Positions 5,875 to 55,658 of a stretch of 64,000 bases of DNA are shown here, one piece after another; within the stretch, counting starts at the first letter, position 1, and every line of letters starts with the position of its first letter. Below the pieces are notes generated by a model. The model did not search any database. It was not told where the DNA came from and saw only the letters and a list, made by a program, of their open reading frames with translations. Source of the stretch: Kribbella sp. ALI-6-A (GTDB lineage: Bacteria > Actinomycetota > Actinomycetes > Propionibacteriales > Kribbellaceae); assembly GCF_001984195.1 (NCBI RefSeq), contig NZ_MTQN01000009.1, positions 558,001-622,000 on the forward strand, given 5' to 3'. The translations under genes and the position numbers were made by a program.

Positions 5875-6009
5875 AGCTCGATGGTGACACCGAAACCCCC
5901 GCACGTCTTGGGGGCAGGCCCTGACCCGAAGACCCGGGGTCGCCCCGAGGTGCCCGGCCACACCGGGGGCGCAGAGTCGAGGGACCAACTTGCCCGAAGG
6001 AGAACCACC

Positions 6010-6672
6010 ATGAAACCGTCGATGGCGATCTACCTCGTCAGCGCTCCCCTGGTCGCCGTTGCGGCCCGCGCGCTGATGACGCCGCAGTACCAGGATCGAG
6101 CCGACAAACTCGACACCACGCGCTATCTCGGCGCACTGGCCGAGGCCGGCACACGCAACGACATCGGAGCGATGCTGGGACTGCTCGGCGCCGTCCTGTA
6201 CGTCGGGGCCGCGCTGGCGCTCGCACGCATCGTCAGAACCCGCTCAGCAAGGATCGGCGCCGCGCTCACGATCGCCGGAGCCTTCGGGCTCTGGACGAAC
6301 TCGGTGTTCGTCCTGCTGGTCGGTCGTCTCGCCGAGGAGCAGGACCGGCAGGCCACCGTCGCCCTGCTGGACCGGGTGAACAGCGCTCCCGTCTTCGCAG
6401 TGTTCTTCCTCGCTCTGATCATCGGTGCCGTCGGATCCGTCGTCCTGGCCGTCGCGCTCTACCGCAGCCGGCTGGTCTCGCGTGCCGCTGCGGTGACCGC
6501 CGGCGTCGGCGGTGCGAGTCTCATGATCACGGCCCCAGGACCGTTGCTGTCGTTCGTCCTGGGCGGCGCCGTGCTCGCTCTGGTCGGCCTCACCTGGGTC
6601 GCTGCCTCGACGACGTTTCCGTACGACCGATCGGCCCGTGGACGTGCGCCGGCTGAGCGGCGCGTGTCATGA
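6010..6672 (+). CDS. Integral membrane protein of unknown function
   Basis: 220 residues from an ATG preceded by AAGGAGA. Six hydrophobic stretches are visible: about residues 5-20, 52-72, 78-100, 125-150, 152-175 and 180-200. A periplasm- or cytoplasm-facing loop after the first helix (residues 22-48) is rich in charged residues. I do not recognise catalytic motifs; the layout resembles small DUF4386-type membrane proteins, but this is not certain. It is divergent from the kinase/regulator pair, suggesting phosphorelay control. Its stop overlaps the convergent DUF2461 gene by 6 bp. Confidence 0.72.
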   Translation: MKPSMAIYLVSAPLVAVAARALMTPQYQDRADKLDTTRYLGALAEAGTRNDIGAMLGLLGAVLYVGAALALARIVRTRSARIGAALTIAGAFGLWTNSVFVLLVGRLAEEQDRQATVALLDRVNSAPVFAVFFLALIIGAVGSVVLAVALYRSRLVSRAAAVTAGVGGASLMITAPGPLLSFVLGGAVLALVGLTWVAASTTFPYDRSARGRAPAERRVS

Positions 6673-12100: not shown

Positions 12101-12171
12101 CTGCAACACCAGGGATACAGCCTCGGCGGTTTCCTCCGCCCAGACCTCACTCCGTGGGACAGTGTCCAACG

Positions 12172-40136: not shown

Positions 40137-41357
40137 TTAGCGCAGGGGCCGGAAGGTGGCGCGGATGTCTTCGATGACTGCTTCGGGGTTCTCCCAGGGA
40201 GAGAAGTGGCCGCCGTGGTCGTGGGCCTTGAGGTAGACGGGGTTGTACCAGCCCTGGTGAGCGGGGTTGTCGAGGAAGTGCTGAACCCTGTTCTCGGTGG
40301 TGACCCCTGGCGGGTTCTCGTAGCCCAGGAAGGTGATGCCGGTCGGGACCTCGATGATCGGGGTCCGGTCGTGGGACGGCTGCCAGGGGTAGCGATTCGC
40401 GTTCACGTAGGACCGCAGGGAACTGGTGATGGAGTTCGTCACCCACCAGATCGTGGCGTTGGTCAGTAGATGCTCGCGCGGGAAGACGCTCTCGACGTCG
40501 CCGTTGGACTCACTCCACTTGGTCCAGCGCCGCAGGATCCACGACAGCATGCCGACCGGCGAGTCGGCCAGCCCGTAGGCGAGGTTCTGGTTGTCCAGCA
40601 GGTGTACCGCGACGTGGGCCGCGAACCGCTGTTGCAGGCCGATCGCTTCGGTACGAATCGGGTCGGGCAGTTCGGCGGGCAACACCGCGCCGCCGGTGAT
40701 GTCCCAGGGGCGATCGCCTTGGAAGATGTCGAGGTGGATGGTCTGCCCGAGCCACAGGCCGTACAGCTTGTCGGCGTACTTGTGCCCGAGCTGGCTGCTG
40801 ACCAGGGCTCCATAGTCCGCGCCGGCCGCGCCGTACTTGGGGTAGCCGAGGTGCTCGGTCATCAGCTGATGCCACAACTCGGCCATCTTCCAGAAGTTCA
40901 TGTCCGGGCGTCCGGTCGGCGTGGAGAACGCGAAGCCGGCCAGTGAGGGCACGATCACGTCGAAGGCGTCGGCCGGGTCACCGCCGTACGCAGCCGGGTC
41001 GGTGAGCGGTCCGATCACCTTGCTCCACTCGCGGTAGCTCCAGGGCCAGCCGTGGCTCATGATCAGCGGGATCGGCGCCGGGCCTTCGCCGGCCTCCTTG
41101 ACGAAGTGGATCGGCGTACCGTCGACGGTGACCCGGTACTGGTTCCACTCGTTCAGCTTCTGCTCGGCGGCGCGCCAGTCGAACTCGTTGGCCCAGTAGT
41201 CGACCAGTTCCTTCATGTACGCCGTACTGGTGCCGTAGTACTCGTCGGTGTCGTCGATGTCGGTAGGCCAGCGGGTGGCGAGCAGCCGGGTGCGGAGATC
41301 GTCGATTGTCTCCTGCGGGATCGAGACGTGGAACCTGTGTTTTTCCAGGTCGTTCAT
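40137..41357 (-). CDS. Epoxide hydrolase, microsomal-type (EHN domain)
   Basis: 406 residues. The N-terminal EHN domain (about 8-115) contains LRTRLLATRWP and WRAAEQKLNEWNQY. The hydrolase core has the oxyanion HGWPWS (102-107), nucleophile Asp181 in GADYGALV and catalytic His384 in HDHGGHFSPWENP. It should open epoxides, or act on esters. It is the last gene of a three-gene minus-strand operon (MFS, SnoaL-like, epoxide hydrolase). A paralogue with the same motifs lies at 50727-51959. Confidence 0.92.
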   Translation of the reverse strand: MNDLEKHRFHVSIPQETIDDLRTRLLATRWPTDIDDTDEYYGTSTAYMKELVDYWANEFDWRAAEQKLNEWNQYRVTVDGTPIHFVKEAGEGPAPIPLIMSHGWPWSYREWSKVIGPLTDPAAYGGDPADAFDVIVPSLAGFAFSTPTGRPDMNFWKMAELWHQLMTEHLGYPKYGAAGADYGALVSSQLGHKYADKLYGLWLGQTIHLDIFQGDRPWDITGGAVLPAELPDPIRTEAIGLQQRFAAHVAVHLLDNQNLAYGLADSPVGMLSWILRRWTKWSESNGDVESVFPREHLLTNATIWWVTNSITSSLRSYVNANRYPWQPSHDRTPIIEVPTGITFLGYENPPGVTTENRVQHFLDNPAHQGWYNPVYLKAHDHGGHFSPWENPEAVIEDIRATFRPLR

Positions 41358-41386
41358 GGTGCGCGTACTCCTTGTGTGGATGAGGC

Positions 41387-41842
41387 TCAGTGGGTGAATT
41401 CGAGCCGGGTGCGGGTCAGGGTGCGGGTGGCGATCAGCCAGTGGCCGTCGATCTTGCGGTAGGTGACGTGGTAATGGCCCCAGCCGCGCATCGTCCGGAA
41501 CGGTGCGGGCTCGGCCTCGGTGCCCTCGCCGCGGTGGATGAGGTCGGCCATCGCCCAGACCGCCTTCGCCGAGGTTGGCGATTCGATCTCGATCTCGTGG
41601 GTGAACAGCTGGTGGATCGGCTGCACGTCCCCACTGTTGCGGGCCGAGAGCAGTTCGGCGATCGCCGCGCGACCGTTCATCATGATCACCTCGTTGCCCT
41701 CGGCATCCATCGGACGGAACCAGCCGTCCGCGGTGAACAGGGCGGCCAGGTCGGTCCAGCGCCGGTGGTCGGCGTACCGGGCGTAGCGGGCTTCGAGGTT
41801 GCGGATGTCTTCGATCGCCGTCAGCGTCTCGAGGTCGAGCAT
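41387..41842 (-). CDS. SnoaL-like (NTF2 fold) protein, copy 1
   Basis: 151 residues. The pattern of the SnoaL_4 group is visible: EDIRNLEARYARYADHRRWTDLAALFTADGWF, a middle MMNGRAAIAELL and the C-terminal RGWGHYHVTYRKIDGHWLIATRTLTRTRLEF. These folds act as cyclases, isomerases, dehydratases or epoxide hydrolases (limonene-epoxide-hydrolase-like), or as binding proteins. It sits between the exporter and the epoxide hydrolase, so a step in the same pathway is likely. Copy 2 at 51990-52448 is clearly related. Confidence 0.85.
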   Translation of the reverse strand: MLDLETLTAIEDIRNLEARYARYADHRRWTDLAALFTADGWFRPMDAEGNEVIMMNGRAAIAELLSARNSGDVQPIHQLFTHEIEIESPTSAKAVWAMADLIHRGEGTEAEPAPFRTMRGWGHYHVTYRKIDGHWLIATRTLTRTRLEFTH

Positions 41843-43281: not shown

Positions 43282-43303
43282 CTTGTCAAGGTACGATGGC
43301 AGC

Positions 43304-43870
43304 ATGACCACGGATCGCCCGCTTCGCGCGGATGCCCGCCGCAACGCTCTGGCCGTGATCGCGGCTGCCCGCGAGCTGTTCGCCGAAGGAGGGGTGGACG
43401 TGCCGATGGAGGAGATCGGCAAAGCCGCCGGCGTCGGCAAGGGGACGTTGTATCGCCATTTCCCGACCCGCGATCACCTGTTCGCTGCGGTCAGCCGTGA
43501 CCGTTTCGATCGGCTCGCGGCCGAGGCGGAGGCGAGCCTGGCGGAGGCGGGCGATTACCGGGCTGCCTTGATCGCCTGGCTGCGCGACTTCGACCGCAGT
43601 GCTCAGCAGTACCGCGGACTCCGGGGCGTGGTGAGTGCGGGGATCGCGGACGAAGGGTCGGCGATCTTCACCGACTGCGCACAGATGAAAGCGCGTGCCG
43701 GGAGTCTGCTGGAGCGGGCCCAGGAAGCGCGCCTGATCCGCTCCGACATAGACATCACTGAACTGCTGAGCCTGGTGGCCGCCCTGCCTGACCGATTCCG
43801 TGACGCCGACGGCTCGAGCCGGCTGCTGGAGATCGTCATCCGCGGAATCGCGATCGATCCGGGTGACTGA
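43304..43870 (+). CDS. TetR family regulator of the MFS/epoxide hydrolase operon
   Basis: 188 residues. TetR HTH about residues 10-55 with the recognition region GVGKGTLYRHFPTRDHLF. The C-terminal part (SGIADEGSAIF... to LLEIVIRGIAI) belongs to the SACE_7040-like/SbtR-type C-terminal domains. A second in-frame start is at 43283 but M-T-T-D after a spacing from the operator is preferred. It is divergent from the MFS operon, with two copies of one palindrome between. Its ligand is likely to be a compound exported by the MFS protein. Confidence 0.91.
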   Translation: MTTDRPLRADARRNALAVIAAARELFAEGGVDVPMEEIGKAAGVGKGTLYRHFPTRDHLFAAVSRDRFDRLAAEAEASLAEAGDYRAALIAWLRDFDRSAQQYRGLRGVVSAGIADEGSAIFTDCAQMKARAGSLLERAQEARLIRSDIDITELLSLVAALPDRFRDADGSSRLLEIVIRGIAIDPGD

Positions 43871-43880
43871 CGTGTCGGCG

Positions 43881-44906
43881 TCAGAGGTGGTCGGCTTCGA
43901 TGACAGCGGCGGCGAAGTCCGCCGGAGCCTCCTGGGGAAGGTTGTGTCCGACGTCCAGGGTGTGGTGCCGGTACTTGCCGGTGAACATGCTCCGGTACGT
44001 CGAGCCGTCCCCCGGGGCGGTGAACGGGTCGCGGGCCGGGTCGAGGGTGACGGTGGGGACCGTGATGAGCGGCTTGGTCTGCAGGACGTTTTCGTAATGG
44101 TCGTAACGCCTCTCGCCAGGTACAAGGCCCAGACGCCAGCGGTAATTGCCGATCACGATGGCCGGGTAGTCGGGATTCTCGAACGCGGCTGCGGTTCGTT
44201 CGAAGGTGGCGTCGTCGAAGTCCCAGGTGGGTGAGACAACGTCCCAGACCAGCCGCGCCAGGTCGTGCCGGTTCTGCTGGAGGTTCATGGCGAGTTCGCC
44301 GCGCTCGGTGGCGAAGTAGTACTGGTACCACCAGGCATACTCGGACTTCGGCGGCAGCGGGGTCTTCTGCGCCTCGAGGTTGGTGATCAGGTATCCGCTC
44401 ACCGACACCAGTGCCTTGACCCGGTGCGGCCAGAGCGCGGCGATGCAGTCGGCCGTGCGCGAGCCCCAGTCGAAGCCGGCCAGGACGGCCTTCTTGATCC
44501 GCAGGGCGTCCATCAAGGCGATGATGTCGAGGGCGAACGTCGACTGCTGGGCATTGCGGGCGGTACCGGCGGACAGGAAGCGGGTCGTACCGTGACCGCG
44601 CAGGTAGGGCACGATCACCCGGTAGCCCTCGGCGGCGAGCAGCGGGGCGACGTCGACAAAACTGTGGATGTCGTACGGCCAGCCGTGCAGACAGATGACC
44701 ACCGGACCGTGCGCGGGGCCGAGTTCGGCGTAGCCGACATTGAGCAGGCCGGCCTTGACCTGCTTGAGGCCGGTGAAGGATTTGCCGGGATTGCCCGGCA
44801 AGCCGCTGGGGGCCGCGGCAGCAGCGGGACCCCCGAGCCCGGTCATGGAAACCGCGGCGGCGCCCAGGCCAATGGTTTTGCCGAAGGTGCGTCGGTCGAT
44901 CGTCAT
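43881..44906 (-). CDS. Tat-exported alpha/beta hydrolase (epoxide hydrolase / haloalkane dehalogenase-like)
   Basis: 341 residues. A twin-arginine signal (DRRTFGKTIGLGAAA) predicts export. The core has HGWPYDIHSF (74-83), nucleophile Asp146 in GFDWGSR, and His321 in VGHNLPQEAP. Asp instead of Ser as nucleophile, together with DWG, puts it with epoxide hydrolases and haloalkane dehalogenases rather than esterases. It follows the SRPBCC gene in the same direction with a 55-bp gap, so they may be an operon. Acts outside the cytoplasm, unlike the two EHN-type paralogues. Confidence 0.88.
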   Translation of the reverse strand: MTIDRRTFGKTIGLGAAAVSMTGLGGPAAAAAPSGLPGNPGKSFTGLKQVKAGLLNVGYAELGPAHGPVVICLHGWPYDIHSFVDVAPLLAAEGYRVIVPYLRGHGTTRFLSAGTARNAQQSTFALDIIALMDALRIKKAVLAGFDWGSRTADCIAALWPHRVKALVSVSGYLITNLEAQKTPLPPKSEYAWWYQYYFATERGELAMNLQQNRHDLARLVWDVVSPTWDFDDATFERTAAAFENPDYPAIVIGNYRWRLGLVPGERRYDHYENVLQTKPLITVPTVTLDPARDPFTAPGDGSTYRSMFTGKYRHHTLDVGHNLPQEAPADFAAAVIEADHL

Positions 44907-44961: not shown

Positions 44962-45417
44962 TCACGCCGGCGACAGCTGGTTGCGCTCCTCGATGACCTT
45001 GATCGTGTTCTTGAACGCCTTCTTCAGCACGCCCTGGCCGACGCCTCCGAGCAGCAGCCCGGCGACGCGGCCCTTGAGGTTCTTGCCCTCGCGGACCACC
45101 ACGACGTCCAGTTGCGTCGTGCCGTCGGGCAAAGGGGTGAAGGTGTAGGTGTGGCCCGATCGGCCGCCCCAGAGGTTGGAGTCGACGGTCGTCAGCCTCA
45201 CGCGGCCCCGGTCGGACCAGTCGTAGTGCAGTCGTTCCCAGACGCCGCCCGAGCCCTCGGTGACATCTGCCGTGTCGGTGCCCTTCGCGTGCACCACCAG
45301 GTAGTCGTCGGAGCTGTTGCCGAACAGTTGCTGGCGGCCCGGGCCGAAGTCGGTGAGGCCGGCCAAGAACTGTTCCGGCGTCGCGCTCGTCTTCTCGGAG
45401 AAGTGGATGGTTGTCAT
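44962..45417 (-). CDS. SRPBCC family protein (START/Bet v1-like fold)
   Basis: 151 residues from an ATG with CAGGAGT before it. Pattern of a small SRPBCC protein: MTTIHFSEKTSATPEQFLAGL, WERLHYDWSDRGRVRLTTV, HTYTFTPLPDGTTQLDVVVV and the C-terminal helix GRVAGLLLGGVGQGVLKKAFKNTIK. Such proteins bind hydrophobic ligands. A CCAGGG-N5-CCCTGG palindrome lies 138 bases before the start. The C-terminal helix recurs in a truncated copy at 46273-46410. Likely in an operon with the downstream hydrolase. Confidence 0.83.
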   Translation of the reverse strand: MTTIHFSEKTSATPEQFLAGLTDFGPGRQQLFGNSSDDYLVVHAKGTDTADVTEGSGGVWERLHYDWSDRGRVRLTTVDSNLWGGRSGHTYTFTPLPDGTTQLDVVVVREGKNLKGRVAGLLLGGVGQGVLKKAFKNTIKVIEERNQLSPA

Positions 45418-45555
45418 GGTGACTCCTGTGTTCTTCGGATCGGTGATGCACCGAGACTGCCCGGCCGGCTGCCCCCGCGGAGCCCGTGCCGAACCCTGGG
45501 TCGTCCACGGGCCGAACGCCGTGCCCGGCCTGCGGGACCCCGCGCCGGGCACGGG

Positions 45556-45572
45556 CCAGGGTTCACCCCTGG
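45556..45572. promoter_or_regulatory. Palindrome CCAGGG-N5-CCCTGG, copy A
   Basis: CCAGGG-TTCAC-CCCTGG, perfect 6-5-6, upstream of the SRPBCC gene (minus strand). A further CCCTGG half-site is at 45494-45499. It shares arms with copies B and C but not the spacer. The 365-bp gap 45418-45782 holds copies A and B and no gene that I can see. Confidence 0.65.
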
Positions 45573-45691
45573 AGCGAGGCCAAGGTGGGTGATCGGACGG
45601 TTGTCAGGGGGCGCCGAACGGCATCCGCTGAGACGAAGGAGTGACGATGGTGGACGGTCCGCGACGCGTTCTTCTGTGACCAGGGCGGCAC

Positions 45692-45708
45692 CCAGGGTGA
45701 CTCCCTGG
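45692..45708. promoter_or_regulatory. Palindrome CCAGGG-N5-CCCTGG, copy B
   Basis: CCAGGGTGACTCCCTGG, identical base for base to copy C at 52523-52539, and extended by one C/G pair on each side. The gap to the glyoxalase start codon is 74 bases. GTGACC and GGTCAC flank it as an outer inverted repeat. Confidence 0.75.
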
Positions 45709-45782
45709 GGTCACGGGTCCTCGCGAACGCGATCGTCGGTGACGGATGCCGGACGGTGTCCGCGAACCGCCGAGGAGGGCGC

Positions 45783-46229
45783 ATGGTGGAGTACAAGCTC
45801 GAGGTGCTCGTGCTGCCGGTTGCCGATGTGGACCGGGCCAAGGAGTTCTACCGCCGGATCGGGTTCCGCGAGGACCTCGACCACTGCGACGGGGAGGACT
45901 TCCGGGTCGTGCACTTCACCCCGCCCGGGTCGCAGTGCTCGATCGTCTTCGGCACCGGGATCGGGCACGCCGAGCCGGGGGCGGTGGAGAACGTCTGCTT
46001 CGTCGTCGGCGACATCGAGCAGGCCCGCGCCGACCTGATCGCGCGCGGCGTCGACGTCAGCGAGATCTTCCACGACCGGGGCGGGGTCTTCCCGCACGCC
46101 GGCACCGACCAGCGGGTGCCGGGGCTCTATCCCGGACGCCGGTCGTACGGCTCGTTCGCCGCGTTCAGCGACCCGGACGGCAACAGCTTCCTGCTCCAGG
46201 AAGTGGCCGAGCGACTGCCGGGCCGGTAG
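45783..46229 (+). CDS. Glyoxalase/bleomycin-resistance-fold protein
   Basis: 148 residues. Start at ATG 45783 because GAGGAGG lies just before it; an earlier in-frame start at 45756 has no such site. Vicinal-oxygen-chelate pattern: LVLPVADVDRAKEFYRRIGFREDLD, VENVCFVVGDIEQARADLIARGVDV, RRSYGSFAAFSDPDGNSFLLQEV. Metal-ligand His/Glu residues are present in part. It could be an isomerase, dioxygenase or binding protein. It follows palindrome copy B with the same spacing as the SnoaL operon follows copy C, and precedes the LAL regulator gene. Confidence 0.83.
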   Translation: MVEYKLEVLVLPVADVDRAKEFYRRIGFREDLDHCDGEDFRVVHFTPPGSQCSIVFGTGIGHAEPGAVENVCFVVGDIEQARADLIARGVDVSEIFHDRGGVFPHAGTDQRVPGLYPGRRSYGSFAAFSDPDGNSFLLQEVAERLPGR

Positions 46230-46272
46230 GCGTCCGCGACCCGGGCACCGCCTCGATCCGCACCGGATCGTG

Positions 46273-46410
46273 ATGCGGACCGTCAAGAATCTCTTCGGTA
46301 GGATGGTCGGGTCCCTGCTCGGCATGGTTGCCAAGGGCCCGCTCGACAAGGCGCTGGGCCACACGATCGAGGCGATCAAGACCCGCGGCGCCGGCCGCCT
46401 CGACGCGTGA
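46273..46410 (+). pseudogene. Truncated SRPBCC gene, C-terminal fragment
   Basis: A 45-residue frame, MRTVKNLFGRMVGSLLG..., ends with MVAKGPLDKALGHTIEAIKTRG, which follows the C-terminal helix pattern of the SRPBCC protein at 44962-45417 (about half of residues identical by eye). The same frame upstream reads HRLDPHRIV before the ATG, also SRPBCC-like, but the N-terminal 100 residues are missing. It is probably a relic of a duplicated gene rather than a functional small protein. Confidence 0.5.
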
Positions 46411-46470
46411 GCACAGGGTCGTTGTCCGCACAACCGAGGCCCCCGCCGCACAGCGGGCCGGGAGGTCACC

Positions 46471-49197
46471 GTGGTGAAGAGCGAGAGTCCGGTACTGCGG
46501 GGCCGGCGGCAGGAGTGCGCGGCGCTCGACGACGTGCTCCGCGACCTGCGAGCCGGGCAGAGCCGAGTGCTGGTGCTGCGCGGCGAAGCGGGCGCCGGCA
46601 AGACGGCGCTGCTGGACTACCTGGCCGACGCCGCGCCGGCCGGCCGGACGACCCGCGCCGCCGGCGTGGAGCCGGAGGCGGAGATCGCGTACTCGGCGCT
46701 GCAGCAGCTCTGCTCTCCGTTGCTGGCCCACCTCGACCGGTTGCCGCAACCGCAGCGGGACGCCCTGAGTACGGCGTTCGGGATGAGCCCCGGGCAACCA
46801 CCCGAACCACTGGTGCTCGGGATGGCGGTGCTCGGGCTGCTGGCCGAGGCGGCGGCCGGCGAACCGCTGATCTGCATAGTCGACGACGTGCAGTGGATGG
46901 ACCGGGCGTCCGAAGTCATCCTCACCTTCGTCGCCCGCCGACTGCACGCCGAGTCGGTCGCGCTGGTGCTGGCCGCCCGTACTCCCGGTGACGAGCAGCT
47001 GTTCGGTGGCCTGCCCGAGCTGCGGATCGAGGGCCTGCCCGAGGCCGAGGCGCGGGCGCTGCTCGAGTCCGTTCTGCCGGGACCGATCGAGGACCGGGTC
47101 CGGGAGCGGATCGTCGCCGAGACCCGGGGGAACCCGCTCGCTCTGCTCGAGCTGCCCCGCGGCCTGTCCGCGACGGAACTGGCCTTCGGGTTCGGGCTGC
47201 CTGGATCGGCTCCGTTGGCCGGCCGCCTGGAGGAGAGCTTTCGGCGACGGATCGCGGAACTGCCGTCCGGGAGCCGCCTGGTGCTGCTCACCGCGGCTGT
47301 CGAGCCGGTCGGTGACCTGCCGCTGCTGTGGCGCGCTCTCGACGTACTCGGCGTCGGTCCGGAGGCGGCCGGAGCCGTCGAGGACGCGCGGCTGGTCGAG
47401 TTCGGGGCCACGGTCCGCTTCCGGCACCCGCTGGTGCGTTCGGCGAGCTGGCGTGCTGCTGATGCCGCCGAGCTGCGCGCGGTGCACGGTGCTCTCGCCG
47501 CGGTGACCGACCCGGTGCACGACCCCGACCGTCGTGCCTGGCACCGGGCGCATGCCGCGGTCGGGCCGGACGCGCTGGTCGCCGCCGAGCTGGAGCAGTC
47601 GGCCGACCGGGCACTGGCCCGGGGTGGCCGGGCCGCGGCCGCGGCCTTCCTGCAGCGCGCCGCCGAGCTCACGCCCGATTCGAAGCAGCGCGCTGGACGG
47701 GCGCTGGCGGCGGCGCGCGCTCAGCTGGTCTCGGGTGCCCCCGAACTGGTCCTCGAGCTGTTGGCCGCCGCCGAGCTGGGCCCGCTCGACCCGCCACAGC
47801 GGGCCGAGGCCGACCGGCTCAGAGCCCACTTGGCCTTCGCCCGCAACGACGGGCGGGACGCCGCTCCTGCACTGCTCGAGGTCGCTCGCCGGCTCGAGGA
47901 CCTCGACCCTGGCGCCGCCCGGCAGACCTACCTGGAGGCGATGGGTTCGGCGCTCAACGCCGGTGAGGCCGGCGCCCCCGACCTGCGCCACGCCGCGCAG
48001 GCCGCCGGTGCGCTGCCGATGGGCGAGGACGTCACCAGTTTGCTGCTGCAGGGATTCGTCGCGCGCACCGTGGACGGGTACGCCGCCTCCGTGCCGTGGT
48101 TCGCCCGGGCGCTGGCGATGCCGGCCGAGGAACGCGATCTGGCTCAGCTGTGGCTCGCGGTGCCGGTGGCGTTCGAGGTGTTCGACGACGCAGCGCTGCA
48201 TCGCCTCACCGAGCACGCGGTGCGCTCCGCGCGCGCGACCGGCACGCTGGCGGTCCTGCCGTCGGCGTTGTTCTTCCGCGCCGGTGCGCTGATGTTCGCC
48301 GGCCGGTTCGCCGACGCCTCGGACATGTTCGAGGAGGCCGACGCGCTCGGGCAGACGACCGGGCTCGCACCGCATCCGTCCGCCGCGCTGGCCCTGTTCG
48401 CCCTGCAGGGCAAGGAAGATTTGGTGCACGCCAGGGTGACTGCTATGACGACAGGTGCCGAGGTGGGGGACGCCCGCCGGCTGCTGAGCAACGCGGCGTA
48501 CGGCCGAGCGGTGTTGCACAACGGGCTCGGCAACTACGCGGCGGCCGCGTCGGCGGCTCGCACCGCGGTCGAGCACGAGAACATCGGGTTGTCGATGCTG
48601 GCGGTTCCCGAGTTGGTCGAAGCTGCGGCGCGCAGCGGCAACACCGCGCTGGCTGAGTGGGCCCGGGCACACCTCGAGGAGCGGACCCGCGCAGCCGGTA
48701 CGCCGTGGGCGCTCGGCGTACAGGCCTTGGCCGACGCACTGGCCGGGCCCGCCGAGCAGGCCGACGAGCGGTACCGGGAGGCGATCGCGCATCTGGGCAC
48801 CGGCCGGCTCGCACTCCTGCAGGCCCGTGCGCGCCTGCTGCACGGCGAGTTCTTGCGTCGGGACAATCGCAGAGGAGCGGCTCGCGAGGCTCTTCGGATG
48901 GCGCACGAGGCGCTGGTCGCGATGGGTGCTGACGGGTTCGCCGAGCGGGCCGGCCGCGAGCTGGTGGCCACCGGGGAGACGGTGCGCCGGCGGGCGCCCG
49001 GCCTGCCGGGGGACCTGACCTCACAGGAAACTCAGATCGCGCGGCTCGCGGTCGCGGGCCGGTCCAATCCCGAGATCGGGGCGACGCTGTTCCTGAGTCC
49101 CCGCACCGTTGAGTGGCACCTGCGCAAGGTGTTCATGAAACTGGGCATCACGTCCCGGCGGGAGTTGGGCGCGGTTCTGCTGCAGCAGCCGCGGTGA
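46471..49197 (+). CDS. LAL-type LuxR family regulator (large ATP-binding regulator)
   Basis: 908 residues from a GTG with GGAGG at 46461-46465. N-terminal AAA-like ATPase: Walker A GEAGAGKT (38-45) and Walker B LICIVDDVQW (133-142). A long central region of TPR-like helices follows, and a C-terminal LuxR HTH (about 845-905) begins LTSQETQIARLAVAGRSN and contains FLSPRTVEWHLRKVF. This is the MalT/LAL layout. It sits amid the hydrolase island, so it is the best candidate to bind the CCAGGG-N5-CCCTGG palindromes. Its last 50 bases overlap the convergent MFS gene. Confidence 0.94.
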   Translation: MVKSESPVLRGRRQECAALDDVLRDLRAGQSRVLVLRGEAGAGKTALLDYLADAAPAGRTTRAAGVEPEAEIAYSALQQLCSPLLAHLDRLPQPQRDALSTAFGMSPGQPPEPLVLGMAVLGLLAEAAAGEPLICIVDDVQWMDRASEVILTFVARRLHAESVALVLAARTPGDEQLFGGLPELRIEGLPEAEARALLESVLPGPIEDRVRERIVAETRGNPLALLELPRGLSATELAFGFGLPGSAPLAGRLEESFRRRIAELPSGSRLVLLTAAVEPVGDLPLLWRALDVLGVGPEAAGAVEDARLVEFGATVRFRHPLVRSASWRAADAAELRAVHGALAAVTDPVHDPDRRAWHRAHAAVGPDALVAAELEQSADRALARGGRAAAAAFLQRAAELTPDSKQRAGRALAAARAQLVSGAPELVLELLAAAELGPLDPPQRAEADRLRAHLAFARNDGRDAAPALLEVARRLEDLDPGAARQTYLEAMGSALNAGEAGAPDLRHAAQAAGALPMGEDVTSLLLQGFVARTVDGYAASVPWFARALAMPAEERDLAQLWLAVPVAFEVFDDAALHRLTEHAVRSARATGTLAVLPSALFFRAGALMFAGRFADASDMFEEADALGQTTGLAPHPSAALALFALQGKEDLVHARVTAMTTGAEVGDARRLLSNAAYGRAVLHNGLGNYAAAASAARTAVEHENIGLSMLAVPELVEAAARSGNTALAEWARAHLEERTRAAGTPWALGVQALADALAGPAEQADERYREAIAHLGTGRLALLQARARLLHGEFLRRDNRRGAAREALRMAHEALVAMGADGFAERAGRELVATGETVRRRAPGLPGDLTSQETQIARLAVAGRSNPEIGATLFLSPRTVEWHLRKVFMKLGITSRRELGAVLLQQPR

Positions 49198-50632
49198 CCT
49201 CGTCGCGCTGAGCACGAGTCAGGCGGGCGTTGACCAGCAGCCCGGCGACCACGGCAGCCGCGACCAGGAAGCCGGCCGCCCAGACGTAGGCGGTCCGGAA
49301 GCCGTACACCAGCCCCGCGTTCTGTGCGGCGGACTCGTGCTCTACGAGGTACGCGACCGTGGCGCTCGTCGCGATCGTGTTGAGCAACGCGATGCCGATG
49401 GACCCACCGACCTGCTGGGAGATGTTGATCATCGCGGAGGCCACGCCGGCGTCCTGCGGGCCGACGCCGTACGTCGCGAGGCTGCTGGCCGGCAGCAGGG
49501 CGGCGCCGATCCCCAGACCCAGGCCGGTCTGGCTGAGCAGCACCAAGGGAAAGAACGCTGTGCCGGTGCCGAGCATCACCATCAGGAGCACCGACGCGGC
49601 GGCGACGAGATAGCCGCCGACCATCACGGCCCGGGAGGACAGACGCGTCATCAGCCATGTGCCCAGCACGGAAGCACCGATGACCTGGGCGACAGCCAAT
49701 GGCAGGAAAGCGACTCCGGTCAGGGCTGGTGAGTACCCCTTGACCACCTGCAGGTAGTAGGTCAGGAACAGCGTGACGGCGAAAAGGCTCAGCAGACCCA
49801 GCAGGGCGGACAGGTAGGCGCCGCCCCGGTTGCGTTCGGTCAGGATGCGCAGTGGTAGCAGGGGTTCGCGGGCGCGGGCCTGGACGAGGACGAAGACCGC
49901 CAGGAACACGAGGCCGGCGGCGATCGACCCGAGTGTCAGGGCACTACCCCACCCGTGGCTGTCGGCCAGCGTGAATCCGTAGACCAAGGCGACCAGGCCG
50001 ACGGTCGCGAACACCGTGCCGGGAAGATCCAGCCGGGTGCGGTGCTCGCGGTCGGCGTCCCTCGGCAGGAACAGCACCGAGCCGACGAGCGGCACGAGGC
50101 CGAGCGGGACGTTGACGAACAACGCCCACCGCCAGCTGAAGTACTCGGTCAGCAGACCGCCCAGCAGGAGTCCGATCGCACCTCCGGACGTGGTGATCGC
50201 CGCGAAGACACCGAAGGCCTTGGCCCGGGCCTTGCCGTCCGGGAACGCCAGCGAGATCAGCGACAACGCGGCCGGTGCGAGCAGCGCACCGGAAACGCCC
50301 TGCAGGGCCCGCGCGGTCAGCAGGATCGCAGTGTTCGGTGCGGCCCCTCCCAGAGCGGAGGACAGGATCAGGCCCGCGAGCCCGATCAGGAAAACGCGCT
50401 TGCGGCCGAACAGGTCACCGAGGCGGCCACCGAGCAGCAGCAGGCCACCGAAGATCAGCGTGTACGACGTGAGGACCCACTGCCGGCCGCCGTCGGAGAT
50501 GTGCAGGTCCTGCTGAGCGGAAGGCAGTGCGACGTTGAGAATGGCCCCGTTGAAGACCAGTAGCAGCTGGGCCGTCGAGATGAAGATCAGCGCGAGAGAA
50601 CGGTGGCCGGTGGAAGCGGAGTGAGCGGGCAT
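49148..50632 (-). CDS. MFS exporter, DHA2 type, cassette 2
   Basis: 494 residues, about 14 hydrophobic segments. Motif A GGRLGDLFGRKRVF after helix 2, and TTSGGAIGLLLGG in helix 5, mark an EmrB/QacA-like drug:H+ antiporter. It is the last gene of the minus-strand operon SnoaL-like, epoxide hydrolase, MFS, whereas in cassette 1 the MFS gene is first. The 3' end overlaps the LAL regulator gene on the other strand by 50 bp. Substrate unknown. Confidence 0.92.
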   Translation of the reverse strand: MPAHSASTGHRSLALIFISTAQLLLVFNGAILNVALPSAQQDLHISDGGRQWVLTSYTLIFGGLLLLGGRLGDLFGRKRVFLIGLAGLILSSALGGAAPNTAILLTARALQGVSGALLAPAALSLISLAFPDGKARAKAFGVFAAITTSGGAIGLLLGGLLTEYFSWRWALFVNVPLGLVPLVGSVLFLPRDADREHRTRLDLPGTVFATVGLVALVYGFTLADSHGWGSALTLGSIAAGLVFLAVFVLVQARAREPLLPLRILTERNRGGAYLSALLGLLSLFAVTLFLTYYLQVVKGYSPALTGVAFLPLAVAQVIGASVLGTWLMTRLSSRAVMVGGYLVAAASVLLMVMLGTGTAFFPLVLLSQTGLGLGIGAALLPASSLATYGVGPQDAGVASAMINISQQVGGSIGIALLNTIATSATVAYLVEHESAAQNAGLVYGFRTAYVWAAGFLVAAAVVAGLLVNARLTRAQRDEVTAAAAAEPRPTPAGT

Positions 50633-50726
50633 GAGTGGTCCTACTTTTCGGGACAGGCGGCGTCGTCCGGACAGCCGGCGCCGGGTCCTCGCGGTCGAGC
50701 GCGGACCCGGCGGGTGCCGGAGCGGA

Positions 50727-51959
50727 TCAGCGCAGCGGGCGGAAGGTGTTGCGCAGATCGCCGATCCACGCCTCAGGGTTCTCGTACGGGCCGAAGTGAC
50801 CGCCGTCGGAGTGTGCGTTGACGTTCACCGCGTTGAACGCGGAGCGGGTCGGTCCGTTCTCGAACGCCGCGATCCGCTCCGCGGGGGTCCGCACCCCGGG
50901 CGGGAAGGTGTCGCCGACCAGGAAGGTGAAACCGGCCGGCACTTCGATCAGCGGCTGGCGGTCGTGCGACGGCTGCCAGGGGTGACGTACCGAGTTGCGG
51001 TAGACCCGGATCGACGAGCCCAGCGCCTGGTTGACCCAGTAGACCGTGGCGGCACCCAGGATCGCGTCGCGCGGGAAGACCTTCTCGAAGTCGCCCCACC
51101 GGTCGCTCCAGGTCTTCCACTTGCGCACCAGCCAGGCGAGCATTCCGGCGGGACTGTCGTTGAACCCGTGGGTGATCGACTGCGCGTCCAGCATGTGTAC
51201 GGCGACGTGCGAGACCAGGGTCTCGTTCATGTGCAGCACGTCGTCGCGCAGCCGGCCCGGCTCAGTCGGGACCGCGGCACCTCCGGTGAGATCCCAGAAC
51301 CGGTCGTTCTGGAAGATCCCGGGGGTCATCTCGTGGCCCAGGTGCACGCCGTACAGGTTCTTGGCGTACTTGTGGCCCAGCTGCGTCGTGACCAGCGCGC
51401 CGTAGTCGGCGCCGCCGACGGCGAACTTCTCGTAGCCCAGGACGTCGGTCATCAGCTCGTGGAAGAGGTCGGCCATCTTCCAGTAGTTCAGGTCACCACG
51501 GCCCACCGGCGTGGAGTGGGCGAAGCCCGGCAGATCGGCGACGACGACATCGAACGCGTCGGCGGGGTCGCCGCCGTAGGCCGCGGGGTCGGTCAGCGGA
51601 CCGATCATCGCGTGATAGGACTGCGGCGGCCAGGGCCAGCCGTGCAGCAGGAGCAGCGGGACCGGGTTCGGGCCCTTGCCGGGTTCGTGGATGAACTGGA
51701 TCGGGGTGCCGCCGAGCTCGACGCGGTAGCGGGCGAAGGAGTTGAACTCCTTCTCGACCGCGCGCCAGTCGAAGTCGGTGGCCCAGTACTCAACCAGGGG
51801 CTTGAGGTAGGCCGTACTGAGGCCGTAGTACTCGTCCTCGTTGTCCAGGTCCTGCGCGAACCGCGTCGCCTTCAGGCGGTTCCGCAGGTCGTCGAGCACG
51901 TCCTGGGCGACGTCGATGGTGAACGGCTCGGGCCGGCGGTTCGGGGTGGTCTCGGTCAT
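50727..51959 (-). CDS. Epoxide hydrolase, microsomal-type, copy 2
   Basis: 410 residues. EHN domain with VLDDLRNRLKATRFAQDLDNEDEYYG and WRAVEKEFNSFARY; core with HGWPWPPQS (106-114), nucleophile Asp185 in GGADYGALV, and catalytic His388 in SDGGHFGPYENPEAW. The overall pattern is the same as the epoxide hydrolase at 40137-41357, including the terminal TFRPLR, so the two are paralogues. It lies 30 bp after the SnoaL gene and 94 bp before the MFS gene. Confidence 0.92.
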   Translation of the reverse strand: MTETTPNRRPEPFTIDVAQDVLDDLRNRLKATRFAQDLDNEDEYYGLSTAYLKPLVEYWATDFDWRAVEKEFNSFARYRVELGGTPIQFIHEPGKGPNPVPLLLLHGWPWPPQSYHAMIGPLTDPAAYGGDPADAFDVVVADLPGFAHSTPVGRGDLNYWKMADLFHELMTDVLGYEKFAVGGADYGALVTTQLGHKYAKNLYGVHLGHEMTPGIFQNDRFWDLTGGAAVPTEPGRLRDDVLHMNETLVSHVAVHMLDAQSITHGFNDSPAGMLAWLVRKWKTWSDRWGDFEKVFPRDAILGAATVYWVNQALGSSIRVYRNSVRHPWQPSHDRQPLIEVPAGFTFLVGDTFPPGVRTPAERIAAFENGPTRSAFNAVNVNAHSDGGHFGPYENPEAWIGDLRNTFRPLR

Positions 51960-51989
51960 GACGGTGTGCCTTTCGGATCAGCTGTGGGA

Positions 51990-52448
51990 TCAGTAGGTGA
52001 AATCGAGCTTCAAGCGGGTCTGGACGAGCTCGGCGATGGACCACGAGCCGCCGGCCCGCACGAAGTGGGCGTGGTAGTGCCCGTAGCCGTGCAGGGTCTT
52101 GAACGGCAGGTCCGCCGGGGGCTCGCTGTCGTCGGACCGGAAGATCAGGTCCTCCATCGCGAACACGCCGCGGGCCGAATCGGCTGTCTTCACGTCGATC
52201 TGGTCGGAGAACAGGTGATGAATCAGTACGTCGTCCGGCCGGTTGCCGGCCCCGAGGGTGGCGGCGATGTGGTCGCGGCCCGCCATCCGCAGCAGCACCG
52301 AGCCGTCCGGCTTGTACGGCGTGAACGTGCCGTCCGGCGTGAAGAGATCGGCCAGGTCCTGCCACTGGTGATGGTCGGCGTGCCGAACGTAGTCGGCCAT
52401 CAGCCGTCGGGTGTCCTCGACGATCTCCAGGCGCTCAACGATGTCCAT
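51990..52448 (-). CDS. SnoaL-like (NTF2 fold) protein, copy 2
   Basis: 152 residues. MDIVERLEIVEDTRRLMADYVRHADHHQWQDLADLFTPDGTF aligns with the start of copy 1 at 41387-41842, and the C-terminal HGYGHYHAHFVRAGGSWSIAELVQTRLKLDF aligns with its end. It heads the second cassette. Palindrome copy C is 74 bases before the ATG. Catalytic role unclear, as for copy 1; the paired occurrence with an epoxide hydrolase in both cassettes supports a shared pathway step. Confidence 0.85.
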   Translation of the reverse strand: MDIVERLEIVEDTRRLMADYVRHADHHQWQDLADLFTPDGTFTPYKPDGSVLLRMAGRDHIAATLGAGNRPDDVLIHHLFSDQIDVKTADSARGVFAMEDLIFRSDDSEPPADLPFKTLHGYGHYHAHFVRAGGSWSIAELVQTRLKLDFTY

Positions 52449-52522
52449 GGGGAGTCCTTCTTGTCTGGCGACGCAGGAGCGCGTCGTACGAGAAGAGTCA
52501 CCGGCACCTGACGGGCGGCGAG

Positions 52523-52539
52523 CCAGGGTGACTCCCTGG
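52523..52539. promoter_or_regulatory. Palindrome CCAGGG-N5-CCCTGG, copy C
   Basis: CCAGGGTGACTCCCTGG, the same 17 bases as copy B, located 74 bases before the SnoaL-2 ATG on the minus strand. The 338-bp gap 52449-52786 otherwise holds only the leader region of the methyltransferase gene on the plus strand. Confidence 0.75.
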
Positions 52540-52786: not shown

Positions 52787-53839
52787 ATGGATGAACAACG
52801 CCTTCAACAGTTTCTGGGGCAGGTGGTTGTCGACAGCGCAGCGGCGTTCGCCGGGTTGTCGACTTCGATCGGAGCTCGCCTCGGGCTGTACGAGGCGATG
52901 GCTGGCGCAGGGCCGTTGAGCTCCTCGGAGCTGGCCGAGCGCACCAACCTCGCCGAGGTTTATGTCAGGGAATGGCTTGCGTTGCAAGTAGCCAGCCAGT
53001 ACGTCGACTACCGGCCGAGCGACGGCAGCTATGAGTTGCCAGACGAACACGCGGCGGTGCTCGCGGACCGGGACTCGCCGGCCTACGCCGTGGGGTCGTT
53101 CCTGATGCTGAAGTCGTTGTACGAGACCGAGGACGAACTGGTCGAGGCGTTCCGGACGGGTCGAGGGGTCGGGTGGGGCGCCCACGGACCCGGCCTTTTC
53201 GAAGGCGTCGCAACGTTCTTCGAGCCTGGATACGCCGCATCGCTGGTCCAGGAGTGGTTGCCGGCGCTCAACGGCGTGGTGGACAAGCTCGAGCGGGGCG
53301 CAAGCGTGGCGGACGTGGGATGCGGCTACGGATCCTCGACGCTGTTGATGGCACAGGCTTATCCCAACTCCCGCTTTCACGGCTTCGACTTCCACGCGCC
53401 GTCCATCGATCAGGCACGAAAGAACGCAGCCGATGCCGGCCTCAGCGAGCGAGTGACCTTCGAAGTGGCGTCCGCCCAGGACTTCCCGGGTGGCAACTAC
53501 GACCTGATCACCTACTTCGACTGCCTGCACGATCTCGGAGATCCCACAGCAGCTTTCGCGCGCGCCGAGCAGGCGCTCGCGACCGACGGCAGCTGTTTGG
53601 TGGTCGAGCCGAACGCATCGTCCCAACCCGAGAAAAACATCAATCCGGTCGGCCGCGCGTACACGGCCACGTCAGTGGTCCTGTGTCTGCCGACTGCTCT
53701 GGCTCAGAACGGTCCCGTCGCACTGGGCAACCACGCCGGCCCAGACGCACTCCGCACACTCGCCGCAGACGCCGGCCTCCACGACTGGCGCCTGGCCACC
53801 GAAACCATCACCAACCGCATCTACCAAGTGAAGCGATGA
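52787..53839 (+). CDS. SAM-dependent methyltransferase with N-terminal winged helix (Rv2258c-like)
   Basis: 350 residues from an ATG with AGGAGTAGAG upstream; a longer frame to 52544 has no support. An N-terminal helical/winged-helix dimerisation domain (GLSTSIGARLGLYEAM, SSSELAERTNLAEVYVREWL) is followed by a Rossmann methyltransferase domain with motif I VADVGCGYGSS (174-184), then FHGFDFHAPSIDQARKNA and YFDCLHDLGDP. This layout is that of O-methyltransferases that act on small molecules. Substrate unknown. It is divergent from the SnoaL/epoxide hydrolase operon. Confidence 0.88.
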   Translation: MDEQRLQQFLGQVVVDSAAAFAGLSTSIGARLGLYEAMAGAGPLSSSELAERTNLAEVYVREWLALQVASQYVDYRPSDGSYELPDEHAAVLADRDSPAYAVGSFLMLKSLYETEDELVEAFRTGRGVGWGAHGPGLFEGVATFFEPGYAASLVQEWLPALNGVVDKLERGASVADVGCGYGSSTLLMAQAYPNSRFHGFDFHAPSIDQARKNAADAGLSERVTFEVASAQDFPGGNYDLITYFDCLHDLGDPTAAFARAEQALATDGSCLVVEPNASSQPEKNINPVGRAYTATSVVLCLPTALAQNGPVALGNHAGPDALRTLAADAGLHDWRLATETITNRIYQVKR

Positions 53840-54050
53840 GACCTCGGTGACGTCGGCCCGGTCCGCACACATGTTGGGTGACACCTCAACGCTGCCCGAA
53901 GCAAGGACTCCGGCGAGCCAGTGCCGAATCCTGGTGTCTCACGCTGGGCCCTGGGCCAGTCCCGTCATGGCGCTGGACTCTCCGCCAGGGTGCTGCCCCA
54001 GTGGTCGACCCTGGGGTCAAACCGATCACTGCCAGGTCAGCATTGGCGGC

Positions 54051-55658
54051 ATGAAGCGACCCCTGATGATCTTCTTGGCTGCGGCGGTCCCAGTCGCCGC
54101 CGTCATCCTGCCCGCGGCGTCCAACGCCGCCACCAGCGACAGCGGCACGACCGCGACCGCCTGCGCCCCCCTTCCCCTCTCCGCGCCGTCCGGCACCACG
54201 GTGGTGTCGGTCACCGCGGAGACCAGGGCCGGAGGCACCTTCACCTTTCCCTCCGCCTTTCCGCCCGTCGCGCCGATCACCGACGTACCGGCCTGGTGCG
54301 ATCTGAAGGTCGTCGTCACCCACCCCGGAGTCAACGACACGGTCAACCTGCGCATCGCGCTCCCCCAGGACCCGATCAACTGGAACGGACGCTTCCAAGC
54401 CACCGGCGGCAGCGCCTACTCCGCCGGTGACGTCAGTGACCGCAGCCTGCCGCTGATCAGCGCCGTCAAGGGCGGGTACGTCGGCGCAGCCACCGACGCC
54501 GGGGTCAAGACCAGCCAGGACGCCAGCTGGGCGCTCACCGCCGACGGCGAGATCAACGCCGGGCTGCTGACCAACTTCGCCTCCCGCTCGGTGCACGACA
54601 TGGCGGTCATCGGCAAGGACGCGACCGCCAAGTTCTACCAGCGCGCCGCGAGCTACTCGTACTTCACCGGCTGCTCAACCGGCGGCCGCCAGGGCTACGC
54701 CGAGGCCCAGCAGTACCCCAACGACTTCCAAGGCATCCTGGCGAATGCGCCGGCGATCGACTGGAACCGGTTCGAGATCGCCACCTTGTGGTCGCAGGCG
54801 GTCTTCAACGAGGAGAAGGTCGCGCCCACCAAGTGCGAACTGGACGCTTTCAACACCGCCGCGGTCGCTGCCTGCGACACCCTCGACCGCGTCAAGGACG
54901 GCGTGATCGACAATCCGCGGGATTGCGCGTTCGACGCCCGCCGCCTGATCGGCCACAAGGTCCTGTGCGACGGCCAGGAACTCACCATCACCAAGGCGCT
55001 CGCCGTCGCCGTCAACAAGCTGTGGGCCGGCCCGACCACTCCGTCGGGCAAGAAGCTGTGGTACGGGCAGAACAAGGGCTCGATCTTCGACTACATCGCG
55101 GCGGCCGGCAAGCCGTTCAAGGTGCCTGAGCTCTGGGCCCAGTACTTCGTGACGAAGAACCCGGCGTTCGACGCGACCAAGCTGACCTACCAGTCGTTCG
55201 AGCAGCTGTTCAACTCCGCGACCAGCCAGTACGACGCTGTCATCGCCCACAACAACCCGAACCTGTCGAAGTTCGCCAGGGCAGGCGGCAAGCTGCTGAC
55301 CTGGCACGGCCAGTCCGACCAGCTCATCCCGACCCAAGGAACCGTCCACTACCGCAAGCGCGTCGACGCCCTCTTCGGCGGCACGAAGCGCGTCGACGAC
55401 TTCTACCGCGTGTTCCTGCTGCCCGGCGTGGACCACTGCGGGACCAAGTTCTTCAGCACCGGCCCTCTGATCAACTCCGGCGCCGACCTCAACGCCCTGG
55501 TCAACTGGGTGGAGAAGGGGCAGGCCCCGAACACCCTGCCGGCGACCTCGGCGGACGGTAGCGCCACCCGGGACATCTGCCGCTACCCGATGGTGACCCG
55601 CTACACCGGCCACGGCGACACCAAGTCGGCAACAAACTACCGCTGCGTCACCCCCTGA
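54051..55658 (+). CDS. Tannase/feruloyl esterase family enzyme, secreted
   Basis: 535 residues. A signal peptide (cleavage near residue 26, SNA) targets it outside. The tannase-family catalytic triad and flanking disulfide are visible: Ser209 in GCSTGGRQG (Cys208 before it), Asp423 in GQSDQLIP, His462 followed by Cys463 in GVDHCG. The family hydrolyses gallate, ferulate or related aromatic esters in plant material. Upstream, CCAGGG (53985) and CCCTGGGGTCA (54009-54019) resemble parts of palindrome copy B. A hairpin follows the stop. Confidence 0.92.
   Translation: MKRPLMIFLAAAVPVAAVILPAASNAATSDSGTTATACAPLPLSAPSGTTVVSVTAETRAGGTFTFPSAFPPVAPITDVPAWCDLKVVVTHPGVNDTVNLRIALPQDPINWNGRFQATGGSAYSAGDVSDRSLPLISAVKGGYVGAATDAGVKTSQDASWALTADGEINAGLLTNFASRSVHDMAVIGKDATAKFYQRAASYSYFTGCSTGGRQGYAEAQQYPNDFQGILANAPAIDWNRFEIATLWSQAVFNEEKVAPTKCELDAFNTAAVAACDTLDRVKDGVIDNPRDCAFDARRLIGHKVLCDGQELTITKALAVAVNKLWAGPTTPSGKKLWYGQNKGSIFDYIAAAGKPFKVPELWAQYFVTKNPAFDATKLTYQSFEQLFNSATSQYDAVIAHNNPNLSKFARAGGKLLTWHGQSDQLIPTQGTVHYRKRVDALFGGTKRVDDFYRVFLLPGVDHCGTKFFSTGPLINSGADLNALVNWVEKGQAPNTLPATSADGSATRDICRYPMVTRYTGHGDTKSATNYRCVTP

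Follow-up and report, generated by a model that had tools for sequence, protein, structure and literature searches.

Regulators of the LAL/MalT type are large proteins with an N-terminal ATP-binding domain and a C-terminal LuxR-type helix-turn-helix (HTH), and in 2012 the LALs were called poorly studied (accessible text of PMC3282765). They are numerous in actinobacteria, with up to 18 matches in a single genome of the genus Kribbella, and their operators are little known. The subject here is a palindrome, CCAGGG-N5-CCCTGG (17 bases, with the half-sites CCAGGG and CCCTGG), that recurs around an LAL gene in an island of hydrolase genes of Kribbella sp. ALI-6-A. The window is the whole 64,000-base stretch that was analysed (contig NZ_MTQN01000009.1, positions 558,001 to 622,000), and plain coordinates below are positions in it. 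A preliminary description had taken the palindromes for the sites of a local regulon and the LAL for the obvious candidate binder. On the sequence evidence, the palindromes are probably operators through which the island LAL would activate a self-amplifying regulon, working much as AlkS does.

In how it works, the closest match to the island system is AlkS, a MalT-sized activator. The AlkS of alkane-degrading Gram-negative bacteria is LuxR/UhpA-like (accessible text of PMC6921075). The two systems differ in their bacteria, their target genes and their operator letters, the AlkS site itself not having been compared letter by letter. In the island, unlike AlkS, a glyoxalase gene separates the operator from the LAL gene, and a third half-site is present beside the palindrome.

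The PAS-LuxR regulators of the PimM type share with the island a LuxR-type HTH, a palindrome with a GGGA...TCCC core and an operator at the -35 region, their operator being CTVGGGAWWTCCCBAG (accessible text of PMC9774167). The island operators do not match this consensus: their outer letters are CC/GG rather than CT/AG, the inner spacing is GGG-N5-CCC rather than GGG-N4-CCC, and the operators of the island LAL's clade have a third half-site on the upstream side. The island regulator, moreover, is an LAL of 908 residues with an AAA_16 domain. No PAS domain is found in it, Pfam giving only AAA, NACHT and GerE families. MalT uses repeated boxes, and the third half-site of the island suggests a MalT-like repetition. 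The letters differ, the MalT box being GGA[TG]GA (accessible text of PMC9628970) and the island repeat CCAGGG. SCO6993, a footprinted LAL, also binds palindromes, from which, according to its authors, a consensus could not be derived (same source); for the island operator, unlike SCO6993, a consensus emerges across genera.

The genome itself holds a paralogous module (C4:385059-390912) that is like the island in having an exact palindrome (C4:385746) 69 bases from a glyoxalase gene, an adjoining MFS gene on its other side and an LAL paralogue (50% identity) 2.4 kb away. It is unlike the island in having no tannase, SnoaL or epoxide hydrolase gene among the five neighbour genes scanned, and no third half-site. 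No paper was found that joins both half-sites to LuxR or regulator terms, most subscription journals lying outside the coverage. In the accessible text of PMC6921075 and PMC13136126, CCAGGG belongs to a PCR primer; PMC3367932, whose accessible text concerns a SARP operator, was set aside. A literature search on the contact residues of NarL found nothing, so NarL contacts do not enter the evidence.

Palindromes and promoters of the island

Exact copies of the palindrome occur in the window at 45556-45572, 45692-45708 and 52523-52539 only, the three positions at which they had been described. The copies at 45692 and 52523 agree in all 17 bases, and each lies 74 bases from an ATG, one of the glyoxalase gene (45783, plus strand) and one of a SnoaL gene (52448, minus strand), while the leaders in between differ, as had been noticed and is now borne out by a leader alignment. 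The related half-sites that had been seen at the tannase promoter resolve into a palindrome with one mismatch, CCAGTG-N5-CCCTGG at 53998-54014, and a further CCAGGG at 53985-53990. With up to two mismatches allowed, enrichment over the whole window is only mild (13 palindromes against a shuffle mean of 7.1, with 4 of 100 shuffles reaching 13), and the case therefore rests on the exact copies and their conservation.

The preliminary description had named a genome-wide search as a check that could overturn it. In 8,101,914 bases on 12 contigs, with the reversed pattern as control, the motif is not common: there are 10 exact copies against 2 for the control, and 93 against 68 when one mismatch is allowed. 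Three of the 10 lie within the 7 kb of the island, a stretch for which the density of the remaining seven predicts about 0.006. Five are intergenic (the three island copies, C4:340472 and C4:385746), all of them preceding catabolic or detoxification-type genes, and five are inside predicted genes (L001, L007-L010). The supposed local regulon would reach beyond the island, for the same contig carries intergenic copies at distances of 218-263 kb; its assignment to epoxide/ester metabolism is an annotation-level guess. The copy at C4:340472 is flanked by genes for a muconolactone isomerase and an enoyl-CoA hydratase, and 2 kb from it, at 342511 and 342584, copies with one mismatch lie between genes for an alpha/beta hydrolase and an epoxide hydrolase. 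Genes outside the window were called with a simple script based on G+C pattern, some of whose starts are wrong; tannase starts were corrected by hand to the conserved MK(R/Q) start, and the island MFS gene, absent from the script's calls, was taken from the open-reading-frame list.

The 38 genomes examined from the genus contain 127 exact copies, compared with 50 of the control. A copy of the CGTCAC/GTGACG type is, among the matches listed, common to many of these genomes, and it is inside a predicted gene in the loci inspected (L001, L174), L156 being a one-letter variant. The exact palindrome at C1:180382 (L001), inside a predicted gene and recurring in many genomes of the genus, is probably a coding coincidence.

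The arrangement of the operators with respect to promoter elements was examined in 44 aligned operator-to-start stretches, with the gene start 54-100 bases off, of which 35 were left after removal of near-copies. Since this range was the analyst's choice, how the distances are spread does not count as separate support. With offsets counted from the first base of the operator, 15 of the 35 leaders have GAC at 20-22 (20 have GA), and 28 have an A-N3-T that begins at 40 or 41, against at most four at any other offset examined; neither peak is reached in any of 2000 leader shuffles. The GAC directly behind the operator can be read as a -35-like element and the AnnnT as a weak -10 at a fixed offset. 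A -35-like element that touches the operator, together with the fixed -10, would place the operator centre near -44 from the putative transcription start; in class II activator-dependent promoters the centre is near -42, adjoining or overlapping the -35. At their commonest letters the pooled operators read CCAGGG-A-N-T-N-T-CCCTGG.

Each island operator can be set against this pattern. Upstream of the glyoxalase gene there are three half-sites, CCAGGG-N6-CCAGGG-N5-CCCTGG (45680-45708, plus strand, its exact palindrome being 45692-45708), followed by a -10-like hexamer, GATCGT (45731-45736, plus strand), whose A is at offset 40. The exact operator of the SnoaL-EHN-MFS genes (52523-52539, minus strand) has a third half-site matching at five of six letters 13 bases upstream, and a -10-like GACTCT with its A at offset 41. 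The tannase operator (53985-54014, plus strand) joins the CCAGGG half-site to the palindrome with one mismatch, the half-site again being 13 bases upstream.

A set of 21 operators of the island LAL clade, each with at most one mismatch, was listed by hand, overlapping partner matches not being counted apart; it leaves out the tannase operators of L040 and L041 and the operator of an SRPBCC-like gene described below, and one member (L039:7778) lacks a clear target gene. A-N3-T is at offset 40 or 41 in all 21, and in 22 of the 31 other operator-gene pairs from the genus, own genome included. A third half-site, defined as at least five of the six letters of CCAGKG 12-13 bases upstream of the palindrome, is found in 20 of the 21 (the miss is 45556) and in 5 of the 31 (chance about 5% each), neither set having been cleared of near-copies and divergent sites among the 31 being counted once per direction. 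The third half-site thus appears to mark the operators of this clade.

In the mechanism that these features suggest, a dimer of the GerE/NarL-type HTH domain of the LAL would read CCAGGG-N5-CCCTGG, and in this LAL clade the third, direct half-site 12-13 bases upstream would also be contacted, perhaps through an additional subunit of an oligomer like that of MalT. The operator would end where the -35 begins (GAC at 20-22), with the weak -10 (nAnnnT) from offset 39/40 to 44/45, and its centre near -44 would lie at the place where LuxR-type activators touch RNA polymerase. Four island promoters would be activated, those of the putative SRPBCC-hydrolase, glyoxalase-LAL (a case of positive autoregulation), SnoaL-epoxide hydrolase-MFS and tannase units, with predicted transcription starts near 45447, 45744, 52487 and 54050; a fifth promoter, at 45556, would have lost its gene. 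The LAL probably amplifies itself, because the glyoxalase and LAL genes are co-oriented with a gap of 241 bases and their order, the glyoxalase directly before the LAL, is kept in Micromonospora (L036-L038).

The genes at 74 bases are predicted to have a leader of about 39 bases. The tannase mRNA is predicted to be leaderless, because the putative transcription start falls on the conserved ATG. A more specific proposal, put forward tentatively, is that in this clade of MalT-like ATPase regulators, found in several actinobacterial families, a three-half-site operator (direct plus inverted), CCAGKG-N6-CCAGGG-N5-CCCTGG, locks an oligomer on the -35 face and drives both leadered (74-base) and leaderless (36-base, tannase) promoters of one ester/epoxide/aldehyde-type detoxification regulon that includes the LAL's own gene. 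The third half-site would then set this regulon apart from the regulons of LAL paralogues with the same palindrome.

Conservation with LAL orthologues

Orthologues of the island LAL at 60-71% identity were found at nine loci of other genera, in Micromonospora (five), Herbidospora (two), Streptosporangium and Nocardioides sp. CER19. The operator is kept with eight of these nine orthologues of at least 60% identity, as exact intergenic copies in the examined flanks, many of them 70-80 bases from a start codon. The copies precede glyoxalase genes (at 77-79 bases, one being a copy with one mismatch), DUF308-type membrane-protein genes (70-80 bases) and tannase genes. At 13 LAL loci of other genera (L036-L048), the inverted repeats of every 6-mer with spacers of 0-12 bases were counted between the genes; CCAGGG-N5-CCCTGG ranks first, with 15 occurrences at eight loci. 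The second, CCCAGG-N7-CCTGGG (five loci), is this palindrome again with its half-sites taken one base further out, and the rest reach at most three loci.

Target genes, taken as those starting 30-100 bases behind a site with at most one mismatch, number 48. Their largest families are the glyoxalases (15), pyridine-nucleotide oxidoreductases (6), MFS transporters (5) and DUF308-type membrane proteins (5), the last three names each coming from one scanned representative. Tannase homologues of at least 60% identity number eight, the window's included. In six of them (window, L036, L037, L039, L042, L044) an operator with at most one mismatch ends 35-36 bases before the ATG of the MK(R/Q) start, and in L040 and L041 a site with two mismatches stands at 36 and 35 bases, respectively. 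Of two distant homologues (47% and 44% identity), one has a two-mismatch match elsewhere only and the other has none. The tannase of L036 (Micromonospora tarensis, about 5920-6072) has its signal-peptide start out of frame with the rest by one base, through a frameshift or a sequencing slip.

The candidate binder and the sign of regulation

The LAL gene (46471-49197, plus strand) encodes 908 residues, with an AAA_16 domain (E 3.1e-18, residues 9-165), the Walker A sequence GEAGAGKT, and a C-terminal GerE HTH (E 1e-13, residues 849-899) whose relatives in the PDB include GerE, VpsT and VraR. In size, at about 900 residues, and in its plan of an N-terminal ATP-binding domain and a C-terminal LuxR/GerE HTH it belongs with the LAL/MalT-type family, and it is predicted to be an ATP-dependent transcription regulator.

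That the LAL is the binder, as had been proposed, is supported by the recurrence of the palindrome with LAL orthologues of other families, by sites beside LAL paralogues of the genus and by the confinement of sites to LALs with one recognition-helix sequence. Among the matches listed, six of 72 exact genus sites are within 5 kb of an LAL, against 0.43 expected, and four more (L158, L160, L167, L171) have an LAL from outside that list about 2.3 kb away. The recognition helix was surveyed in 70 LALs, 68 of them with a readable helix, a site being an intergenic CCAGKG-N5-CMCTGG within 5 kb. A site accompanies 27 of the 38 LALs with the helix S[PAR]RTVEWH[LM]RK and none of the 30 with other helices; at loci not chosen by site the figures are 15 of 26 and 0 of 30 (Fisher 5e-7, the rows not being independent). 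On a tree of the 68, the site label is clustered, with 11 changes against a shuffled mean of 21.

Several results weigh against this reading. Both the binding by the LAL and the activation are read from sequence. At loci not chosen by site, 11 LALs with the S[PAR]RTVEWH[LM]RK helix lack a site, and when the link between helix and site is corrected for kinship, 4 to 7 independent pairs remain, none opposed, with a median p of 0.25, which is not significant. The LAL orthologue of Nocardioides sp. CER19 (60% identity) has no exact intergenic copy in its examined flanks. Around C4:340472-342600 there is no LAL within the 14 kb examined (L027), and several intergenic sites of the genus have none in their examined flanks. 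Nor does the palindrome show any enrichment at 33 genus LAL loci that were selected by their LAL score.

Across the class, longer motifs are rare. The three-half-site pattern occurs in 4 of 197 genomes, own genome included; of the copies in the other three, only one is intergenic, predicted genes containing the remaining two, and there is no LAL within the 3-kb loci. CCAGGGANTNTCCCTGG occurs in 5 of 394 genomes, and four of its five loci have no LAL in the 15 kb examined; at the locus L183 an LAL-like HTH (44% over 89 residues) lies 6.9 kb away, at the edge of the stretch, where the protein may be cut. Outside the own genome no full-length LAL was found beside either longer motif, and given these counts a broad occurrence of the longer motifs in the class is rejected.

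The lack of enrichment at the 33 score-chosen loci rejects the idea that all these LALs use the site. Taken together with the excess of sites near LALs, it implies that only certain LAL sub-clades do so.

The main rival on the sign of regulation is that the LAL binds but represses, the operator abutting the -35 and blocking RNA polymerase until a signal releases the protein. This is unlikely, though not negligibly so: the operator does touch the GAC of the -35-like element, and SCO6993, an LAL-type regulator, represses its targets (PMC9628970, accessible text). Against it, the -10 often lacks its first T (GAnnnT or CAnnnT), as expected for activator-dependent promoters, and the operator ends upstream of the -35 instead of covering the region from -35 to -10. 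PAS-LuxR regulators, too, bind at the -35 region (PMC9774167, accessible text), and AlkS binds directly upstream of the -35 (PMC6921075, accessible text).

Somewhat less probable still is that another protein reads the palindrome (for example a TetR-type regulator encoded at 43283-43870, an unlinked LuxR-type protein or another LAL paralogue), the proximity of the LAL being a by-product of gene clustering. The genus sites and the C4:340472-342600 region without an LAL in their examined flanks would be explained in this way, and the genome does have five LAL paralogues at 49-52% identity to the island LAL. The LAL is, however, the most recurrent family near the sites, at 21 of 32 loci; 17 of the 32 had been chosen with an LAL in view, and four of the other 15 have one. 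The only other regulator family recognised in the best 22 clusters is the TetR type, at four loci with shared neighbours, and LALs with altered recognition helices lack sites. A chance or non-regulatory palindrome, such as a coding repeat or a terminator-like hairpin, can be dismissed, for although half of the exact genomic copies are inside predicted genes and that at C1:180382 recurs through the genus, the clustering in the island, the fixed distance to start codons and the conservation with promoter elements in several families contradict it, as does the conserved operator-promoter geometry already.

Activation by the island LAL remains the preferred account, in which one consensus, one promoter geometry and a matching recognition helix hold across several genera. 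An operator consensus would make the targets of some sub-clades of this large and poorly known group of regulators predictable from sequence, and the predicted targets provide a short list for testing what the LAL ATPases sense. Leaderless tannase transcripts with fixed spacing are a checkable prediction.

Degenerate sites, relics and neighbouring genes

To the left of the exact copies lies a gene that is presumably SRPBCC-like (44962-45417, minus strand). It has no Pfam family at an E threshold of 0.001, and its homologues occur in 5 of the 32 site loci. An alpha/beta hydrolase gene downstream of it (43881-44906, minus strand; Abhydrolase_1, E 2.2e-21) is probably co-transcribed, the gap being 55 bases. 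The candidate operator of the SRPBCC-like gene is degenerate, CCAGGG-N5-CACGGG with two mismatches (45483-45499, minus strand), 65 bases from the ATG and with AnnnT at offset 41. Its score alone is within the range of shuffled DNA. In a Micromonospora SRPBCC homologue (L044), however, CCAGGGTAGGACACGGG stands at 66 bases, and sites with at most two mismatches stand at 64-65 bases in three homologues from the genus. Among the seven SRPBCC homologues recognised by a shared motif, window included, five have such a site at 64-66 bases, one has a site at 143 bases and one has none. The exact copy at 45556 was rejected as the operator of this gene, because 45483-45499 fits at 65 bases; read on the minus strand, 45556 lacks AnnnT at the right offset and is 138 bases off.

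The operator at 45556-45572 (plus strand) faces right, with GA at offset 20 and GACGGT at 40-45, its A at offset 41; only four of the six letters of a third half-site are present. Exactly 74 bases from it is the ATG of a 10-codon open reading frame (45647-45679, plus strand), preceded by the ribosome-binding sequence GAAGGAG. Over 16 bases the leader matches a Micromonospora glyoxalase leader at 15 of 16 positions. The copy resembles a promoter whose glyoxalase gene has been lost or truncated; alternatively, the 10 codons may be a leader peptide. A 45-codon reading frame at 46273-46410 is similar to the last part of the SRPBCC-like protein (50% over 38 residues, with a pairwise E of 0.002), and together these scraps suggest past duplications in the island.

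The remaining island genes are the glyoxalase/VOC-family gene before the LAL (45783-46229, plus strand; Pfam Glyoxalase, E 1.9e-7), the leftward SnoaL_4-family gene (51990-52448, minus strand; E 2e-21), an epoxide hydrolase gene (EHN plus abhydrolase domains) 30 bases after it (50727-51959, minus strand; EHN, E 5.2e-30), an MFS transporter gene 94 bases further on (49148-50632, minus strand; MFS_1, E 2.1e-46), and the tannase/feruloyl-esterase-family gene (54051-55658, plus strand; Tannase, E 4e-87), whose ATG is exactly 36 bases from its operator. Between the SnoaL and tannase operators is a methyltransferase gene (52787-53839) whose coding score is weak and whose product has a winged-HTH domain of the Rv2258c-like kind; it is without an operator of its own and was possibly inserted. 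Nearby, a site with two mismatches faces left at 53918-53934, with AnnnT at offset 41 and no gene start in reach; it is similar to the degenerate SRPBCC operator and is perhaps a relic.

A second SnoaL_4-epoxide hydrolase pair, with no recognisable operator, lies at 40137-41842 behind an MFS gene that is divergent from the TetR-type gene at 43283-43870, a type read from the sequence. The enzyme pair is the same as the island's and its control is apparently different. Far from the island, at 12109-12125, a weak palindrome with two mismatches stands 46 bases before a gene at 12172, with a score within the range of shuffled DNA.

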